Assembly (NCBI RefSeq): GCF_015209745.1
Contig: NZ_CP063657.1
Coordinates: 1,922,001-1,986,000 of the forward strand
DNA: 64,000 nt
Direction of reading: 5' to 3'
Source of the DNA: Lysobacter avium
Lineage (GTDB): Bacteria; Pseudomonadota; Gammaproteobacteria; Xanthomonadales; Xanthomonadaceae
In this document: one piece after another, positions 6,035 to 27,049 of the stretch
Numbering within the stretch: position 1 is the stretch's first letter
Layout of the letters: every line of letters begins with the position of its first letter
Program-made: the position numbers and the translations under genes
The notes under the pieces: generated by a model
Seen by the model: the letters and a program-made list of their open reading frames with translations, nothing else
The model's database searches: none
Told to the model about the DNA's origin: nothing

Positions 6035-8503
6035 TCAGCTTTTCTTCCTGCGGCCCTTGGCGGCGGGCTTCTTGGCGGGTGCGTCGGCCTGCGCATCGCC
6101 CCGGGCTTCCGCCTCTTCGCCGGGCTTGCGCGGCTTGCCGTCGCCGGCCAGGCGGAAGTCGATCTTGCGCTCCTCCAGGCTGGCCTTCATCACGATGATG
6201 CTGACGCGGTCGCCCAGGCGGTATTCGCGGCCGGTCTTGTCGCCGGTGAGCGTCTTGCGGATGGGGTCGAAGCGGTAGTAGTCGTTGGGCAGCTGGGTCA
6301 CGTGGACCAGGCCGTTGACCTTGGACTGGTCCAGCTCGACGAACAGGCCGAAGCTGGTGACGCCGCTGATCACGCCGTCGAACTCGCTGCCCACGTGCTG
6401 CTCCATCCACGCGGCGCGGTAGCGGTCATCGACCTCACGCGAAGCCTCGTCGGCGCGGCGGCCGCGCTCGGAGCTCTGCAGGGACAGCTGGGCCATGTCG
6501 CTGGGCGAGTAGCGGTATTTCTCCGGCGCGGCGCCACTCAGTGCGTGCTTGATCGCGCGGTGCACCAGCAGGTCGGGGTAGCGGCGGATCGGCGAGGTGA
6601 AGTGGGCGTAGGCCTCCAGCGCCAGGCCGAAGTGACCGATGTTTTCCGGCTGGTACACGGCCAGGCTCTGGCTGCGCAGCAGGACGGATTCGATCAGCGG
6701 CGCCTCGGCGCGCTCGCGGGTGTTGCGCAGCAGCTGGGTGTAGTCGCGCGGCTGCACCTTCGACCACGGCGGCATGCGCAGCTGGAACTCCTTGAGGAAC
6801 TCCAGCAGGTCTTCGTACTTCTGCTCCGGCGGGCGGTCGTGGGTACGGTAGGGGGCGACCACTTCGGCCTCGATCAGGAACTTCGCGGCCTCCACGTTGG
6901 CCGCGATCATGCATTCCTCGATCAGCTTGTGGGCGTCGTTGCGCACCAGCATGCCGGCCTGGATGACTTCACCGCGCTCGCCGAGGACGAAGCGCACTTC
7001 GCTTGATTCAAACTCGATCGCGCCACGCTTGGAGCGCGCCTTGGCCAGCACCTGGTAGAGCTGGTGCAGGCGCTGCAGGTTGGGCAGCAATTCGCCGACC
7101 TGCTGCTGCGCTTCCTCGCGCGCCTCATCCTCGATGCCATCACCGATCGCGTTCCAGACCTGGTTGTAGGTCAGGCGGGCGTGCGAGCGCATCACCGCTT
7201 CGTAGAATCTCGACTCGGTCACCTGGCCCATGCGGTCCACCTGCATGTCGCAGACGAAGCACAGGCGGTCGACCTTGGGCTTGAGCGAGCAGATGCCGTT
7301 GGACAGCACCTCGGGCAGCATCGGCACCACGAAACCGGGGAAGTAGACCGAGGTGGCGCGGTTCTGCGCCTCCTCGTCCAGCGGGCGGCCGGGGCGCACG
7401 TAATGGGACACGTCGGCGATGGCGACGATCAACCGGAAACCGTCGCGGTTGGGTTCGCACCACACCGCGTCATCGAAATCCTTGGCGTCCTCGCCGTCGA
7501 TGGTGACCAGCGGGAACGCACGCAGGTCCACGCGGTTCGCGGTTTCCTCAGCCTGCACCTCGACCGGGATCGCGCCCGCCTCGTCCAGCACCTCGGGGGC
7601 GAATTCGTGCGGGATGTTGTGGCCGTGGATCGCGGCCTGCACCGCCAGCGAGGCGGTCAGCTTCTCGCCCAGCACGGTCAGGATGCGGCCCATCGGCGGG
7701 CGGCGCGCGTCGGGCGCGCGGGTCAGCTCGCACACCACCAGATTGCCCGGCTGCGCGTCGCCGCGACCCTCGGGCGGAATCAGGATGTTGCGCTGGACGC
7801 GGCGGTCGTCGGGCTCCACGTAGCAGATGCCGTCATCGACGATGAAGCGGCCGATCATCCGGCTCATGCGGCGCTCGAGCACCTCCAGGATCGTGCCTTC
7901 CTGGCGGCCGCGGTTGTCCATGCCGGTGAGGCCGGCGAGGACGCGGTCGCCGTGCATGACCTTCCGCATCTCGTAGGGCGGCAGGAACATGTCATCGCCG
8001 CCGGCATCCGGGCGCAGGAAGCCGTAGCCGTCCGGGTTGGCGATTACGGTGCCGGGGACGAGGTCGAGCTGCTGGGCGGGGACGAAGCCGCCGCGCCGGT
8101 TCTGCAGCACTTGGCCGTCGCGCACCATCGCGCGCAGGCGGGCGGTCATCGCATCGAAGCGGTCGGGCTCGGTCAGGGCGAGCTTGGTCGCCAGCGCCTC
8201 GGCGTCCATCGGACCGTCGGCGGCGGCCAGCAGCTGCAGGATCATCTCGCGGCTGGCGATGGGCTGGTCGTAGCGCGCGGCCTCGCGGGCGGCAAACGGA
8301 TCGGCCAGCTTGCCGTCCTTGCCCGTGTCAGGGTGCAGCGGCGCCAGCGGCGGCTTGGGACCGCCGCGCGGTGCGTCGGGCAGCCAGCCGGGCTTCTTGC
8401 CCTTGGGCTTGCCGCCTGCGGCGCCTGCCGCGGATTTCGGGGTTCCGGCCTTGCCGGTCGATTTGGACGGCTTGCGGCCGCGCTTGCTGGGGGGCTTGTT
8501 CAT
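6035..8503 (-). CDS. rnr: Ribonuclease R, 3'-5' exoribonuclease
   Basis: RNase R degrades structured RNA processively from the 3' end and takes part in rRNA and tmRNA-linked mRNA decay. The 822-residue protein has a basic low-complexity N-terminus (1-60), a winged-helix RNase B/R N-terminal domain (about 75-140), two OB cold-shock domains, and the RNB catalytic domain. DGEDAKDFDDAV (about 336-347) supplies the Mg-binding aspartates. Later come FALSPIRRYPD-like HFTSPIRRYPDLLVHR, an S1 domain (EFDGVISGVTSFGLFVEL) and a Lys/Ala-rich tail ending GRRKKS. I chose ATG 8503 (MNKPPSKRGRK) because the 10 codons before it, reaching a TTG at 8533, are not basic like the family's N-termini. No strong Shine-Dalgarno sequence is visible at either start. 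Confidence 0.95.
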   Translation of the reverse strand: MNKPPSKRGRKPSKSTGKAGTPKSAAGAAGGKPKGKKPGWLPDAPRGGPKPPLAPLHPDTGKDGKLADPFAAREAARYDQPIASREMILQLLAAADGPMDAEALATKLALTEPDRFDAMTARLRAMVRDGQVLQNRRGGFVPAQQLDLVPGTVIANPDGYGFLRPDAGGDDMFLPPYEMRKVMHGDRVLAGLTGMDNRGRQEGTILEVLERRMSRMIGRFIVDDGICYVEPDDRRVQRNILIPPEGRGDAQPGNLVVCELTRAPDARRPPMGRILTVLGEKLTASLAVQAAIHGHNIPHEFAPEVLDEAGAIPVEVQAEETANRVDLRAFPLVTIDGEDAKDFDDAVWCEPNRDGFRLIVAIADVSHYVRPGRPLDEEAQNRATSVYFPGFVVPMLPEVLSNGICSLKPKVDRLCFVCDMQVDRMGQVTESRFYEAVMRSHARLTYNQVWNAIGDGIEDEAREEAQQQVGELLPNLQRLHQLYQVLAKARSKRGAIEFESSEVRFVLGERGEVIQAGMLVRNDAHKLIEECMIAANVEAAKFLIEAEVVAPYRTHDRPPEQKYEDLLEFLKEFQLRMPPWSKVQPRDYTQLLRNTRERAEAPLIESVLLRSQSLAVYQPENIGHFGLALEAYAHFTSPIRRYPDLLVHRAIKHALSGAAPEKYRYSPSDMAQLSLQSSERGRRADEASREVDDRYRAAWMEQHVGSEFDGVISGVTSFGLFVELDQSKVNGLVHVTQLPNDYYRFDPIRKTLTGDKTGREYRLGDRVSIIVMKASLEERKIDFRLAGDGKPRKPGEEAEARGDAQADAPAKKPAAKGRRKKS

Positions 8504-15262: not shown

Positions 15263-15919
15263 ATGGAACCCGACTTCTGGCAACAGCGCTGGCAGGAAGG
15301 CCGCATCGGCTTCCACCAGGACCGCGAGACCCCGCTGATGCTCAAGCATTGGCCGTCCCTGCAGGTGCCGGCCGGCAGCCGGGTGTTCGTGCCATTGGCG
15401 GGCAAGAGCCTGGACATGCTGTGGTTTGCCAACCAGGGCTATCGGGTGTTCGGCGTGGAGCTGGCCCTGACCGCGATCGAGCAGTTCCTCGCCGAGCACG
15501 CCCTGCACGCTGAAACCCGCGACTCAGCCGCAGGCCGGCATTACCGCGCCGGCGATCTGGAGCTGGTGCAGGGCGACGTGTTCGCCCAGGGTCCCGCCGA
15601 TCTGGCGGGATGCGACGCCGTCTACGACCGTGCCGCGCTGATCGCGCTGCCGCCCGCCCTGCGCGAGCGCTATGCAAGCGAGGTGTACGGCCGCTTGCCC
15701 AGCGGTTGCCGAGGCCTGCTGATCACCCTGGAATACCCGCAGATCGAGAAGGCCGGTCCGCCCTTCAGCGTCGAGGAAGCCGAGGTGCGGGCGTTGTTCA
15801 GTCCGCAGTGGGAGGTCGGCGTGCTCGAGCGACGCGAGATCCTGTCGCAGCAGCCGAACTTCATTGCCGATGGCGTCAGCGCACTGCAGACCGTGGTGTA
15901 CGAGCTGCGCCGACGCTAG
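15263..15919 (+). CDS. tpm: Thiopurine S-methyltransferase family enzyme
   Basis: This SAM-dependent methyltransferase of 218 residues methylates thiopurines in vitro. In Pseudomonas relatives it also methylates selenium and tellurium oxyanion products, so detoxification is the likely role. The family N-terminus EPDFWQQRWQEGRIGFHQ is intact (FW...R...W..G). The SAM site is VFVPLAGKSLDMLWFANQGY with GVELALTAIEQF after it. CDAVYDRAALIALP carries the conserved YDR, and LLITLEYPQ follows. Length matches the family (about 218). AGGAACC precedes ATG 15263. It follows parC closely and may be cotranscribed, although the functions are unrelated. Confidence 0.93.
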   Translation: MEPDFWQQRWQEGRIGFHQDRETPLMLKHWPSLQVPAGSRVFVPLAGKSLDMLWFANQGYRVFGVELALTAIEQFLAEHALHAETRDSAAGRHYRAGDLELVQGDVFAQGPADLAGCDAVYDRAALIALPPALRERYASEVYGRLPSGCRGLLITLEYPQIEKAGPPFSVEEAEVRALFSPQWEVGVLERREILSQQPNFIADGVSALQTVVYELRRR

Positions 15920-15963: not shown

Positions 15964-17658
15964 TCACGCATTGGCCGCCTGGTGCACGCCGCGCATCGCC
16001 CGCCCCGACGGGTCGGCCGCGTTGGAGAACGACGCATCCCAGGCCAGCGCCGTCTCGGTGGAGCAGGCGATCGACTTGCCGCCCGGCACCGTGCGCGCGC
16101 ATGCATCGCCGGGAAACTGCTGCTCGAACAGCTCGCGATACCAGTAGCCCTCCTTGGTGACCGGGGTGTTGATCGGGAACCGCGCGGCGGCCTCGGCCAG
16201 CTGGGCGTCGCTCACCGTGGCCTCAGCGTGGTCCTTGAGCCCATCGATCCAGCCGTAGCCGACGCCGTCGCTGAACTGCTCCTTCTGCCGCCACAGGATC
16301 GAGTCGGGCAGGTAGCCCTCGAACGCCTCCCGCAGCACCGCCTTCTCGATGCGCACCGTGCCGTCCGCGCGCATCCCGACCATCTTGGCGCTGGCGTCCA
16401 TCTTCATCGCGACCTCCATGAAGGCCACGTCCAGGAACGGCACCCGCGGCTCCACGCCCCAGGCCATCATCGACTTGTTGGCGCGCAGGCAATCGTAGTT
16501 GTGCAGGGCGTCGATCTTGCGCACCAGCTCCTCGTGGAATTCGCGCGCGTTGGGCGCCTTGTGGAAGTACAGGTAGCCGCCGAAGATCTCGTCGCTGCCC
16601 TCGCCCGACAGGACCATTTTCACGCCCATCGCCTTGATCCGGCGCGCGAGCAGGAACATCGGGGTGGACGCGCGGATGGTGGTGACGTCGTAGGTCTCGA
16701 TGTGCCGGATCACCTCGGGAATGGCGTCCATGCCCTCCTCCTGGGTGTAGGTGAAACCGTGGTGCACGGTGCCCAGCGCCTCGGCGGCGACCTCCGCGGC
16801 GGCCAGGTCGGGCGAACCGTCCAGGCCGATGGCGAAGGAATGCAGTCGCGGCCACCATGCCTCTGCCTGGTCGTCCTCCTCGATGCGCTTGCGCGCGAAC
16901 CGCGCGGCGCAGGCGGCGACCAGCGAGGAATCCAGCCCGCCTGACAACAACACGCCGTACGGCACGTCGCACATCAGCTGCCGGTGCACGGCCGCCTCGA
17001 AAGCTTCGCGCAGTTCGGCCGGATCGACCCGCACATCGACGGTCGCGGCGTGTTCGCGCCACGGCCGCTGGTAGTAAGCGACCAGCTGGCCGTCCGCGCT
17101 GTCGTAAAAGTGCCCCGGCGGAAACTGGGCGACGTCGTCGCAGGTGTCGGCCAACGCCTTCATCTCGGAGGCCACGCACAGCCGCCCGGCAGCGTCGTGG
17201 CCCCAATACAGCGGCACCACGCCGATCGGGTCACGCGCGATGAGCACACGCTGCGCCCGGCGATCCCACAGGGCGAAGGCGAAGATGCCATTGACGCGGT
17301 TCAACCAGCCGCCGATGTCGGCGTCCTCGCGGAACAGCGCGCTGATGACCTCGCAGTCCGATTCGGTCTGGAAGTCGTAGGCCTGCCGCAGCGCCGCCTT
17401 CAGCTCGCGGTGGTTGTAGATCTCGCCGTTGACCGCCAGCACCAGGTCGCCGTCGGCCGAGCGCATCGGCTGGGCGCCACCGGCCGGATCGACGATGGCG
17501 AGGCGCTCATGGACCAGGATCGCCGCCTCGTCGACGTACACGCCGCTCCAGTCCGGCCCGCGGTGGCGCTGGCGCCGCGACAGTTCGAGCGCGAGCGGGC
17601 GCAGCGGTTGCAGGTCGTCACCGGGTTGCTGGCGGAAGATGCCGAGGATCGAGCACAT
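15964..17658 (-). CDS. asnB: Asparagine synthase B, glutamine-hydrolysing
   Basis: AsnB makes asparagine from aspartate, ATP and glutamine. The 564-residue protein starts MCSILGIF, where Cys2 becomes the N-terminal nucleophile of the glutaminase domain (about 1-190, with RHRGPD and NGEIYNH). The synthetase domain has the PP-loop LLSGGLDSS (237-245), SGEGSDEIFGGYLYFH and RVPFLD. Sequence and length resemble E. coli AsnB closely. ATG 17658 has AGGAG nine bases upstream. The gene is monocistronic. Its 5' region carries an Asn-rich leader peptide and an intrinsic terminator that together look like an amino-acid attenuator (separate entries), which fits feedback by charged tRNA-Asn. Confidence 0.97.
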   Translation of the reverse strand: MCSILGIFRQQPGDDLQPLRPLALELSRRQRHRGPDWSGVYVDEAAILVHERLAIVDPAGGAQPMRSADGDLVLAVNGEIYNHRELKAALRQAYDFQTESDCEVISALFREDADIGGWLNRVNGIFAFALWDRRAQRVLIARDPIGVVPLYWGHDAAGRLCVASEMKALADTCDDVAQFPPGHFYDSADGQLVAYYQRPWREHAATVDVRVDPAELREAFEAAVHRQLMCDVPYGVLLSGGLDSSLVAACAARFARKRIEEDDQAEAWWPRLHSFAIGLDGSPDLAAAEVAAEALGTVHHGFTYTQEEGMDAIPEVIRHIETYDVTTIRASTPMFLLARRIKAMGVKMVLSGEGSDEIFGGYLYFHKAPNAREFHEELVRKIDALHNYDCLRANKSMMAWGVEPRVPFLDVAFMEVAMKMDASAKMVGMRADGTVRIEKAVLREAFEGYLPDSILWRQKEQFSDGVGYGWIDGLKDHAEATVSDAQLAEAAARFPINTPVTKEGYWYRELFEQQFPGDACARTVPGGKSIACSTETALAWDASFSNAADPSGRAMRGVHQAANA

Positions 17659-17697
17659 GGGGCGAACTCCTGGTGGATGGGACGTGGAAAGAAGGCG

Positions 17698-17731
17698 AAA
17701 AAAAAGGCCCGCACTTCGCAGTGCAGGCCTT
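17698..17731 (-). terminator. Attenuator terminator in the asnB leader
   Basis: On the minus strand AAGGCCUGCACU-GCGA-AGUGCGGGCCUU forms a 12-bp stem. One U·G wobble is the only non-Watson-Crick pair, and the loop is a GNRA tetraloop. An uninterrupted run of U, eight including the last two stem bases, follows. It points towards asnB and ends 39 bp before the asnB ATG, with no minus-strand gene upstream whose transcript it could end. GGCCUGC of its 5' arm is complementary to GCAGGCC at 17771-17777 in the leader, so an alternative fold can break it. Confidence 0.85.
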
Positions 17732-17761
17732 GGATTCGATTAGTGCGTTTTGTCGTGCGCG

Positions 17762-17884
17762 CTAGTCGTCGGCCTGCGGGAGGCGGACGTTGTTATTCGA
17801 GTTGAGCTGCGCAGCAACGCGCGTCGCACAAGGCGTGGAGCCGATGACGAAAGACGCGTGGAGCCGGGCGGGAGCGTGATGCAT
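17762..17884 (-). CDS. Putative asnB leader peptide, Asn-rich
   Basis: This 40-codon frame begins at ATG 17884 with a GGTGGAAG-like ribosome site about ten bases upstream. It ends with TAG 31 bp before the terminator hairpin. The critical part is residues 26-32, QLNSNNN, encoded CAG CTC AAC TCG AAT AAC AAC: four of five consecutive codons read by tRNA-Asn, directly upstream of an asparagine synthetase. Eleven bases after the last Asn codon comes GCAGGCC, the predicted antiterminator strand. It spans the CCG CAG GCC codons and lies just before the stop. A ribosome finishing at the stop would cover it and allow termination. A ribosome starved for Asn-tRNA would stall before it, freeing it to pair with the terminator's 5' arm. 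Translation itself is inferred. Confidence 0.65.
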   Translation of the reverse strand: MHHAPARLHASFVIGSTPCATRVAAQLNSNNNVRLPQADD

Positions 17885-17953
17885 TGGCCGAGCTTCCACC
17901 ATCGGGATGCGAGGCGCAAGCTCCCTGCTCCGCAAGCAAGCGCGGCATTGTCC

Positions 17954-18063: not shown

Positions 18064-18930
18064 ATGAAGAAAGTCCTCGGCATCTACAGCGCGCCCAAGC
18101 CGCATTGGGTCGGCGACGGCTTCCCGGTCCGTTCGCTGTTTTCCTACCACGGCCTGGGCCAGCACCTGAGCCCGTTCCTGTTGCTGGACTATGCCGGTCC
18201 GATGCGGTTCGAGCCGGCCGCCCGGCCGCGCGGCGTCGGACAGCACCCGCACCGCGGCTTCGAGACGGTCACCATCGTCTATGAGGGCGAGGTGGAGCAT
18301 CGCGATTCCACCGGCGCCGGCGGCACCATCGGCCCGGGCGATGTGCAGTGGATGACCGCCGCCTCGGGCATCCTGCACGAGGAGTTCCACTCGCACGCGT
18401 TCACCCGCACTGGCGGCACGCTGGAGATGGTGCAGCTGTGGGTCAACCTGCCGACGAAGGACAAGATGGCCGCGCCCGGGTACCAGACGCTGCTCGATGC
18501 CGACATTCCTTCCGTGCCGCTGCCCGGAAATGCGGGCAGGGTCCGGGTGATTGCCGGTGAGTACGCCGGCCATGCGGGTCCAGCGCGCACCTTCACCGCG
18601 ATGAACGTCTGGGACGTGCGCCTCGGCAAGGACCGTTCCAGCCAATTCGAACTGCCCGAGGGTCACACGGCGGCGCTGGTCGTCCTGCATGGCACCGTGC
18701 AGGTCAACGAAACGCAGATCGCCCGCGAAGGGCAGCTGGTGATGCTCGACCGCGCCGGCAGCGACTTGCTGCTGGAAGCCAACACCGACGCCACCGTACT
18801 GCTGCTCAGCGGGGAGCCGATTGACGAGCCCATCGTCGGCCACGGCCCGTTCGTGATGAACAGCCAGGCCGAGATCCACCAGGCCATCGCGGACTTCGAC
18901 GGTGGTCGCTTCGGCCGCATGCCGCATTGA
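18064..18930 (+). CDS. Pirin family protein
   Basis: Pirins are bicupin metalloproteins; some bacterial members have quercetinase activity and others modulate metabolic enzymes. The 288-residue protein shows the complete N-terminal cupin metal site: H61 and H63 in GQHPHRGFETVT, and H105 and E107 in SGILHEEFHS. PGDVQWMTA and VQLWVNLP are family signatures. The C-terminal cupin is present (about 165-285). ATG 18064 immediately follows AGAACCCC. An FMN reductase starts 31 bp downstream on the same strand and is probably cotranscribed; both fit a redox or electrophile response. The true substrate is unknown. Confidence 0.93.
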   Translation: MKKVLGIYSAPKPHWVGDGFPVRSLFSYHGLGQHLSPFLLLDYAGPMRFEPAARPRGVGQHPHRGFETVTIVYEGEVEHRDSTGAGGTIGPGDVQWMTAASGILHEEFHSHAFTRTGGTLEMVQLWVNLPTKDKMAAPGYQTLLDADIPSVPLPGNAGRVRVIAGEYAGHAGPARTFTAMNVWDVRLGKDRSSQFELPEGHTAALVVLHGTVQVNETQIAREGQLVMLDRAGSDLLLEANTDATVLLLSGEPIDEPIVGHGPFVMNSQAEIHQAIADFDGGRFGRMPH

Positions 18931-24392: not shown

Positions 24393-27049
24393 AAGGGTTC
24401 TCCTTCAAGACAGGCAAGCAGCGCGGTGCTCAATCCCTGTTGGCGGTCCGCGTCCAATGGCTGGCTGTGGCCGTGGGCATCGGTAGCGGTGATCTGGAAG
24501 ACGTCCTCGGCGCGCGCGCCGAAGGTGGCAATGCGCGCATCGTGGACGCGCATGTGCTGCTGGCGCAGGATCTGCGCGACATCGGCGAGCAGTCCGGGCC
24601 GGTCGGTGCACACCAGGCTCAGCGTGGTTCGCCCGTCGCCGACGTCGTCGAAGCCGATCTTCGGCGCGATGCGGAAGTGTCGCAGGTGCCGCGGCTGGGT
24701 GCGCCTGGCCGGGCGGATGTCATCCAGCGGGCCGTCCAGCGCGAGTGCAAGGCGCTCGGCGACATCGGCGGCGACCGGTGCCCGACGCGAGTCGCCGGGG
24801 ATGACTTCAAAGGTGTCGAAAATGGTGCCATTGGGGCCGTCCAGCACCCGCGCCTGCTGGATTTCCAGCCCGCAGCGGTCGAGCACGGCAACGATCGCGG
24901 CAAACAGGCCGTCGCGGTCCATCGAGTGCACGAATACTTCCAGTGCGCCGGTATCGGCAGCCACGGGACGCACCCGCACCTTCGTCCGACCCGGTTCCAG
25001 CCGGTGCAGCGCGGCGGCCTGCCAGGCCAGCTGATACGGCCGACCGCGCTGGAAGCCGGCCTCCGGCATGCGCGCGAACAGCTCGGCAATCGTCGCCTCG
25101 TCCATGCCTTGGGCGGCCAGCAGACCTTCCACCGCCTGACGCGTCTCGGCGATGTGCTCGGTGACTGCAACCGGATTTTCCAGCCCGCGCCGCAGGGCCA
25201 GTCGCGTCGCGGTGTAGAGGTCGGCCATCAGCCGGTTCTTCCACGCATTCCACAGCTTGGGCGAGGTGCCGGCGATGTCCGCGCAGGTCAGCAGGTAGAG
25301 ATGGTCGAGCCGCTCGCGATCCCCGACCACGGTGGCGAAGCGGTGGATCACGTCCGGATCTGCAATGTCCTGCTTCTGCGCGGTGATCGACATCAGCAGG
25401 TGCTTGCGCACCAGCCATTCCACCAGCGCGGTGTCCGCCTCACCCAGTCCAACGGTGCTGCAGAAGACGCGCGCATCGTCAGCGCCCAGCTCGGAGTGGT
25501 TGCCGCCGCGACCCTTGGCGATGTCGTGGAACAGCCCGGCGAGCAAGAGCAGCTCGGGCTTGCGCAGGCGCGGCCAGACCTCGTGCGCCAGTGCAAAGCG
25601 CTCGCTGGACTCCGGATTGGCGAAGGACGCGATGTTTTTCAGCACCGCCAGCGTGTGCTGATCGACGGTATAGACGTGAAAGAGGTCGAACTGCATCCGT
25701 CCGGAGACCTTCAGGAACGCCGGGATCCAGCGCCCCAGGACGCCCAGGCGGGCCATGCGGGTCAGCGTGCGGACCGGCTGCTCGCCGCGCAGCAGCCGCA
25801 GGAATCGCTGGTGCAACTCCGGACCGGCGCTGTCGAAGTCAGGAAAGCTGGGCAGCGCTTCGGCCAGCACCCGCGCGGTGTGCGAGTGCAATCCGCTCAG
25901 CTCGCCGCGCGCCGCCCAGGTCGCGAACAGCGCGAAGACTTCGCCAGGATCACGCGGCCAGTCCGGATCGCGCGCGGCAAGGTAACCGCGGCGCAACTCG
26001 AAAAGCTCATCCAGCGGTTCCGGCTCGGCCTCGCCTTCCAGTTGTTCTTCAAACCGCTGCAGCAACCGCTCACCGATGCGCAGCACCAGCGAGGCGTTGC
26101 GGTAGAAGCCCTGCATCATCTGCTCGACGGCCAGCGTTCCGCCGACGTCCTCGAAGCCCAGCCGGGTGGCGAGCAGCTTCTGAAAATCGAAGCGCAGGCG
26201 CTCTTCGCGCTTGCCGGCGACCAGGTGCAGCCCGTACCGGAGACGGGCCAGCCCCCGGCGCTCACGCTCCAGCGTCGCCACCTCGTCGGCGCCCATCTGG
26301 CCGAACGCCACCAGCGACTCCATGTCCGCGGTGCCAATGATGCGCAATGCCATCCAGTTGAGGGTCTGCACGTCGCGCAAACCGCCGGGGCCTTCCTTCA
26401 GGTTGGGCTCGAGGTTGTCGGCGGTATCGTCAAAGCGCGCGTGGCGCTCGCGCAGTTCCAGCCGCTTGGCCTCGAAGAACTGCTGCGGCGGCCAGACCAA
26501 CCGCGGCGACACCGCCGCCTGCAACTCGCGCCGCTCGTGCTCGTTGGCCATCAGCGGCCGCGCTTCCAGCAAGGCGGTCAGGACGGTGATGTCCTCGATG
26601 GAGGCCTGGGTGCATTGTTCCAGCGAGCGCACCGCGTGGCCGACCGGCAGGCCGCAGTCCCACAACAGCGCGAACAGGCGCGCCAGGTCCTCGGCGCGGG
26701 TCTGCGACTCGTCAGCTTCCGCCAGCACCAGCAGGTCGATGTCGGACTGTGGATACAGCTCGCCGCGACCGTAGCCACCAACCGCGAACAGGGCCAGCTC
26801 CGCGCCCGGCGGGATGCAGCGCTGCCAGGCGGCCTGGACCACGGCGTCGACCTCGGCGGCGCGCTCGGCCAGCAGGCGGTCGATCTCGGCATCCGCGTCA
26901 AAACGGCTGGCGAATCCGGCATCGGCGCGCGCCAGATGTCCGCGCGCCTGCGCCGCCCAGTCGGCATCCTGGCGGACGTCGGCGCGGTCCGGATCCTCAG
27001 TCACTCCCGGGAGCGAAGCCCGGTCGCCGCCGGGGCCAGCCGGTTTCAT
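24389..27049 (-). CDS. glnD: [Protein-PII] uridylyltransferase/uridylyl-removing enzyme
   Basis: GlnD senses glutamine and adds or removes UMP on PII proteins, setting nitrogen assimilation. The 886-residue protein has the nucleotidyltransferase core [19 protein letters not shown] (91-109), the GlnD linker region, an HD domain ([17 protein letters not shown]) for uridylyl removal, and two C-terminal ACT domains ([20 protein letters not shown] and [18 protein letters not shown]) for glutamine binding. Every module is present. The ATG overlaps the map stop at ATGA, and the dapD GTG overlaps its own stop. Its place between map and the dap genes is usual in this family of bacteria. Confidence 0.97.

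Follow-up and report, generated by a model that had tools for sequence, protein, structure and literature searches.

What is the role of a short open reading frame (ORF) that carries a run of asparagine codons and stands, followed by a terminator, in front of an asparagine synthetase gene? The question is raised by a locus in the window, the whole stretch of 64,000 nucleotides of Lysobacter avium DNA analysed here. There, a leader ORF of 40 codons plus TAG (17762..17884, minus strand; ATG at 17884, predicted as start; TAG at 17764-17762) lies upstream of an ORF for a glutamine-dependent asparagine synthetase of 564 aa (15964..17658, minus strand), the putative regulated gene, which from an earlier note on this DNA and general knowledge we take to be asnB. 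Translation of the leader ORF (17884-17762, minus strand) yields MHHAPARLHASFVIGSTPCATRVAAQLNSNNNVRLPQADD followed by the stop. Its regulatory stretch, AAC TCG AAT AAC AAC (17789..17803, minus strand, read directly), contains the Asn codons AAC (17803-17801), AAT (17797-17795), AAC (17794-17792) and AAC (17791-17789). Letters and coordinates of this ORF, as the earlier note had given them, were confirmed on re-reading. Other in-frame starts exist 5' of 17884 (GTG 17899, ATG 17902, TTG 17935 and TTG 17998); 17884 was taken as the leader start because its upstream sequence fits the family pattern. A Shine-Dalgarno (SD)-like AGGAG read from the sequence (17667..17671, minus strand) precedes asnB. 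The long ORFs flanking the locus, pirin-like on the 5' side (18064-18930) and methyltransferase-like on the 3' side (15263-15919), both named by eye, are both on the plus strand, so that asnB is probably transcribed from the leader region and alone, as a monocistronic unit.

An intrinsic terminator was located between leader and asnB (17698..17731, minus strand; terminator scan and pair counts). It consists of a 12-pair hairpin (17731-17704) with a GCGA loop and a U-tract reaching 17698, at the place and of the form that the earlier note had described. The scan returned 3 overlapping terminator-like sites at the locus against 0.5 in shuffles, and the segment 17680-17900 folds better than its dinucleotide shuffles (z -2.8). 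Region 3 (GGCCTGC, 17723..17729, minus strand; alignment pair counts) is common to the terminator and to a candidate antiterminator, whose 5' strand, region 2 (GCAGGCC, 17771..17777, minus strand; covariation and swap test), is within the leader ORF. Region 2 begins 11 nt past the last Asn codon (17777-17771), again as the earlier note had it. Region 1 (GTCCGCCT, 17781..17788, minus strand; folds and pair counts) would pair with region 2 if the ribosome is absent. When region 1 was masked and region 4 left out, the window RNA folded into a single long hairpin of -22.1 kcal/mol, made of GCAGGCC/GGCCUGC plus the pairings GA/UC, CGA/UCG, UAG/CUA and GCG/CGC. The latter form an inner antiterminator stem (17733..17770, minus strand; folds and swap test) in which GA, CGA, UAG (the stop codon) and GCG face CGC, CUA (17743-17741), UCG and UC. 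Given the ribosome footprint size, the predicted geometry is that of attenuation: a stalled ribosome covers region 1 and spares region 2, and a ribosome at the stop covers region 2. With region 4 present, the terminator was the minimum free energy (MFE) structure of the window in every state tested, the stalled ribosome included, and antitermination must therefore be kinetic.

These elements suggest the following course of events. The transcript would begin on the leader ATG or no more than a few bases from it, and its bare 5' AUG would be loaded by a ribosome. When charged tRNA-Asn is scarce, this ribosome would stall on the AAC/AAU run and cover region 1. Newly made region 3 would then be captured by region 2 and the inner segment while region 4 is still missing, and through this 2:3 pairing RNA polymerase would continue into asnB, which would thus be induced. 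When Asn-tRNA is plentiful, the ribosome would reach the UAG, where it would cover both the inner stem and region 2, and regions 3 and 4 would form the terminator. Without a ribosome, regions 1 and 2 would pair with each other and the terminator would form too.

Asn leaders were searched for upstream of asnB in other genomes. A leader was counted when it had at least 4 Asn codons in 8, an in-frame start and stop, and a terminator at most 110 nt past the stop; start or orientation was set by hand for 10 loci. In the own family, asnB was detected in 131 of 149 genomes, the window's included, and upstream sequences were taken from 129 of the other 130 (G143 omitted). Removing L097, which lies at a contig edge and has no upstream, and 9 sequences identical to named loci left 119 deduplicated upstreams. 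The named set was made of the best 80 asnB loci listed from named contigs. At the level of the order, asnB was found in 126 of 200 genomes and the upstream DNA of 60 was taken.

As a result, an Asn leader with terminator was recovered in 96 of the 119 own-family upstreams. The same criterion applied with 11 other amino acids gave at most 8 of 119 each (the maximum, 8, being for Gln), and 2000 mononucleotide shuffles of the window's 450-nt upstream gave none. The window itself passed (1/1), as did 35 of the 41 loci counted as Lysobacterales among the best 80 named, 18 of 20 in family f12 (Rhodanobacteraceae-like by its leader peptides), 3 of 3 in f2 and 1 of 14 in f7 (L257). No Asn leader was found in the 20 upstreams of f9, another family of the order, nor in the single upstream of each of f4, f5 and f10, and only one (L049) among the 39 other loci of the best 80 named.

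Relaxing the threshold to at least 3 Asn codons raised the own-family count to 103 of 119 and was less specific, 4 of the 39 other loci within the best 80 named also passing. The 16 own-family loci still missed were 13 with a divergent AsnB (62-65% identity), L117, L120 and L168; in L117, an Asn stretch and a terminator are situated further upstream. No Asn leader was detected in L199, L201-L211, L213, L048 and L079, all with a divergent AsnB (61-65% identity), and asparagine control must differ in these loci. Three of the 39 other named loci (L008, L017 and L039) encode a Lysobacterales-like AsnB (74-80% identity to the window's) and have no Asn leader; in L008 another ORF ends directly before asnB. 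The contigs of these three are labelled Holophagales, Rhodococcus and Deltaproteobacteria, which points to transfer or to mislabelled contigs.

The leader peptides typically end in NNNNRNNASLPRAGD, NRNNLRANNRARPMRVCD or NNNNRANNNANRWRARA, directly before the stop, and their N-terminal parts vary between genera. In 35 of the best 80 named loci, the leaders use AAT for 105 of their 224 Asn codons and the asnB ORFs of these loci for 42 of 291, and the use of both AAC and AAT in leaders speaks for selection on the amino acid. The stop is TAG in 123 of 140 leaders, and the distance from the stop codon to the terminator arm has a median of 29 nt (5-95% range 23-35). Two checks proposed by the earlier note, on the Asn enrichment of orthologous leaders and on the conservation of their spacing, thus came out in its favour.

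We then considered whether the alternative pairings are maintained. The 140 leaders (113 distinct) used for this purpose had been chosen by an earlier terminator finder, which misses stems swallowing the U-tract. Over the 113 distinct leaders, regions 2 and 3 paired at -18.81 kcal/mol with their own partners versus -16.33 with swapped ones (0 of 20000 permutations, phylogeny uncorrected). As controls, the sequence before the Asn run showed no difference (own -12.57, swapped -12.64) and the Asn stretch itself no clear one (-6.05 versus -5.86, 1619 of 20000 permutations). Compared with shuffled versions of region 2, the 2:3 energy had a mean z of -1.74, only 55 of 113 leaders lying below -1.64. 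For the inner stem, tested in 86 of the 113 leaders, the rest being without the motif used to place its ends, the values were -12.36 for own and -9.13 for swapped partners (0 of 20000 permutations, phylogeny again uncorrected), and inner segments beat dissimilar partners in 79 of 86. When region 1 was masked and region 4 left out of the fold, the MFE structure contained 5 or more 2:3 pairs in 99 of the 113 distinct leaders and fell short of this in the remaining 14; with the ribosome at the stop, the terminator was part of the MFE structure in all 113, which had been pre-selected for having one.

Pair counts were made on alignment A1, comprising 63 of 70 chosen rows (L007, L049, L117, L128, L141, L152 and L185 omitted). 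The 2:3 helix was paired in 88.6% of its cells versus at most 45.4% when slid. Double changes were counted in 15 of its cells, spread over 3 of the 7 pairs, against a mean of 6.2 in shuffles (0 of 500); one slid version (-1) also had 15, at 43.2% pairing, and the number of double-changed pairs (3) was not above shuffles (244 of 500). The terminator helix was 92.5% paired with 104 double-changed cells. The 1:2 hairpin is seen both in the window and in 34 leaders that make up a Lysobacter-type set; the window's form was paired in 66.1% of the cells of A1, and on average the hairpin was no stronger than shuffles (mean z -0.14). At column 114, which belongs to region 3, 6 of the 63 rows, including that of the window, have U in place of C; the terminator partner stays G there, forming a wobble. 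In the same rows the region-2 partner has changed from G to A, which keeps the antiterminator Watson-Crick. This change is explained by the 2:3 pairing and is unexplained by the terminator alone; the 6 rows may represent one event.

The alignment therefore points to a mutually exclusive antiterminator pairing that is maintained by compensatory change, the covariation of GCAGGCC with GGCCUGC being a further check that the earlier note had put forward. Its worry that an antiterminator of only 7 bp would be weak is largely answered by the covarying inner stem, which includes the UAG; this pairing may explain the constant stop codon. Taken together, the conserved Asn codons, the terminator, the 2:3 and inner pairings and the spacing support the classical attenuation of asnB first proposed there, and as far as sequence comparison can tell we hold it very likely that the element is a ribosome-mediated transcription attenuator of the trp/his type, specific for asparagine, upstream of asnB.

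Where the leader transcript starts was approached through its predicted promoter. A -35-like element, TTGCGC (17914..17919, minus strand), was assigned by weight matrix and by the TTG position in relatives, and a -10-like element, GAAGCT (17891..17896, minus strand), a weak match with A at -11 and T at -7, by weight matrix and counts. The matrix was built over 135 leaders whose ATG was picked using the same matrix and is thus partly circular. Counts were made on the 88 leaders with a single candidate ATG; the window has two in-frame ATGs. TTG occurred at -37..-33 of the ATG in 87 of the 88, and together with A-11 and T-7 in 43. At four other offsets, A-11 with T-7 was found in 0-4 of 88, TTG in 0, 1, 23 and 4 of 88, and the joint pattern in none. 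SD-like tetramers preceded the leader ATG in 11 of 88 versus the asnB start in 80 of 88. The -35/-10 spacing would put the +1 of a sigma-70-type promoter at the ATG, so that the leader mRNA is probably leaderless, starting at or within a few bases of it. In this respect it would resemble the trp leader RNA of Sinorhizobium meliloti (rnTrpL), which starts at the ATG of its leader peptide according to PMC7298713; the 5' end is reported there and predicted here from promoter spacing, and the codons are Trp codons there and Asn codons here. The same paper gives trans roles to rnTrpL and to the peptide peTrpL, a precedent for a leader that would work differently, be it through translational coupling, through control by Rho or as an RNA or peptide acting in trans, with a secondary part for the terminator. 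For the asnB leader we regard this as very unlikely, in that it is mainly the Asn codons and the alternative pairings that are conserved, the N-termini of the peptides differ among genera, and asnB has its own SD-like site in the proportion just given.

A covariance model of leader and terminator (R1) was run over 369 genomes of the class. In four genomes of the own family the asnB leaders reached 71-81 bits, the next-best match scoring 37.8. Sixteen of the lower-scoring loci (L283-L298) were scanned for Asn clusters, and the density used above (4 or more in 8) was reached within 500 nt in L289, L292 and L293. L293 (34 bits) was rejected as an Asn leader: a long protein with RTX-like repeats ends there, followed by a terminator. 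Four further lower-scoring matches were two ilv-type leaders and two plain terminators. Since R1 is dominated by its terminator, the lack of further Asn leaders among the matches read is weak negative evidence; the search also failed to reveal the Asn leaders of Rhodothermota described below. In other genomes the model is often matched in its 3' half alone, and the terminator is of the common GCCCGC/GCGGGC type. This would suit a hairpin that does no more than terminate an upstream transcript or a small RNA, next to an Asn run that is the low-complexity accident of a spurious ORF. What decides against such a coincidence is that most own-family upstreams, as counted above, repeat the Asn codons (AAC alternating with AAT), the stop and the spacing, that other amino acids show no such recurrence, and that region 2 fits its own terminator arm; we rejected it on this recurrence and consider it extremely unlikely.

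Within the family, R1 matched 116 of 149 genomes at E <= 1e-7, under strict filters by which weak matches can be lost. Eight of the matched regions away from known asnB genes were read: 2 asnB leaders, 5 regions with ilv-type leaders and 1 plain terminator. In G101, which had no asnB match in the family search, the leader is intact (L318, G101:C1:2420600-2424600) and asnB reads in two frames, owing either to a frameshift or to an assembly error. In G030, the edge of a contig carries a second asnB leader. Leaders of the ilv type, with LVLVLIT codons and a terminator, were seen in L321, L322, L323, L324 and L320 (12704-12820 of G130:C72), and also in L300 and L302, with IlvC- or IlvD-like genes downstream where seen (by eye); together with Thr-codon leaders, they belong to the second score tier of the model. 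In the five ilv-type leaders checked, TTGACA precedes the ATG by 35-37 nt, as it does in six ilv or Thr leaders in all, with ATGs chosen by eye, and the ilv-type leaders are probably likewise leaderless. L320 also contains a Thr-rich leader (TTTTITT; 6651-6759 of G130:C72) with a terminator and TTGACA 37 nt before its ATG. In the window, a weak R1 match at 26658-26742 on the plus strand (17.5 bits) is probably an ordinary terminator.

L049, the one locus outside those counted as Lysobacterales that passed the stricter threshold among the best 80 named, is on a Rubrivirga contig. Among 80 genomes of its order, a close asnB was found in 14, of which 11 have it at full length. Asn leaders precede asnB in 5 of these 11 Rhodothermota-type loci, the Rubricoccaceae-type ones: L303 (L049's own), L305, L306, L307 and L308, which are the closest (AsnB 78-100% identity). 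About 140-165 nt ahead of their asnB they carry 3-5 Asn codons in 8 (only 3 in two of them), followed by a GC-rich hairpin with a T-run. The other six full-length loci (64-68% identity) showed no Asn leader. Leader starts would be TTG, GTG or ATG and are, by eye, further from promoter-like motifs, so that leaderless initiation is not suggested there. On a tree of 55 AsnB proteins, the leader label is borne by two clades that lie apart and takes at least 3 changes to explain, and the Rhodothermota leaders are apparently a separate gain, which suggests a repeated origin of such attenuators. We lean towards a wider reading, in which Asn specificity would have been gained at least twice (in Lysobacterales and in Rubricoccaceae-type Rhodothermota) and Lysobacterales attenuator leaders generally (Asn, ilv and Thr) would be leaderless, the race between ribosome and polymerase starting at the first nucleotide.

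T-box elements bind tRNA directly, without a leader peptide. As in the Firmicutes genes that they control, tRNA charging would be sensed at asnB to control the supply of the amino acid concerned. A T-box or another riboswitch sensing tRNA-Asn or asparagine could do the same, asparagine-related genes of Firmicutes being partly under T-box control (the T-box survey PMC2494555 mentions asnS). At the asnB locus, unlike in those genes, no T-box was found: no Rfam family matched at gathering score, the sub-threshold matches include no T-box, and the conserved part is an ORF. A T-box or known Rfam element was rejected on the lack of a match at gathering score, and we give a riboswitch next to no chance.

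The classical attenuated operons of proteobacteria are his, ilv, thr, leu, phe and trp (PMC1183508 for part of this list). The asnB element shares with them a leader of cognate codons, competing 2:3 and 3:4 pairings, an intrinsic terminator and a biosynthetic gene downstream. It differs in its Asn codons and in having asnB as target, here probably monocistronic, and in an inner antiterminator stem that contains the UAG. No description of an asparagine attenuator appeared among the matches listed from the open PMC literature; a table elsewhere may hold such a prediction, subscription papers, supplements and gene tables of surveys lying outside this scope. Asparagine is unmentioned in the main texts of PMC2965389, PMC4833913, PMC1262725 and PMC1183508, and the main text of a Xanthomonas transcription start site paper (PMC3744752) mentions neither asnB, asparagine, attenuation nor leader. 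Asn would be a new amino-acid specificity of the classical attenuation mechanism. If the reading is true, asparagine joins the short list of amino acids under leader-peptide attenuation, and the attenuator would account for a possible control of asparagine synthesis in the order to which Xanthomonas, Stenotrophomonas and Lysobacter belong. More than 100 natural variants are available to test stall position, antiterminator strength, and leaderless initiation against attenuator sensitivity.

Finally, the asparagine physiology of the Lysobacter avium genome was surveyed by searches. AsnRS was found above the cut-off; GatA was not (best amidase-like match 203 bits versus 481; GatB and GatC were outside the search), and AsnA was not found. 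This fits an Asn attenuator. Outside the window, the genome encodes two more AsnB-like proteins (L082 and L083; 733 and 649 aa), 44% identical over the first 169-182 residues.
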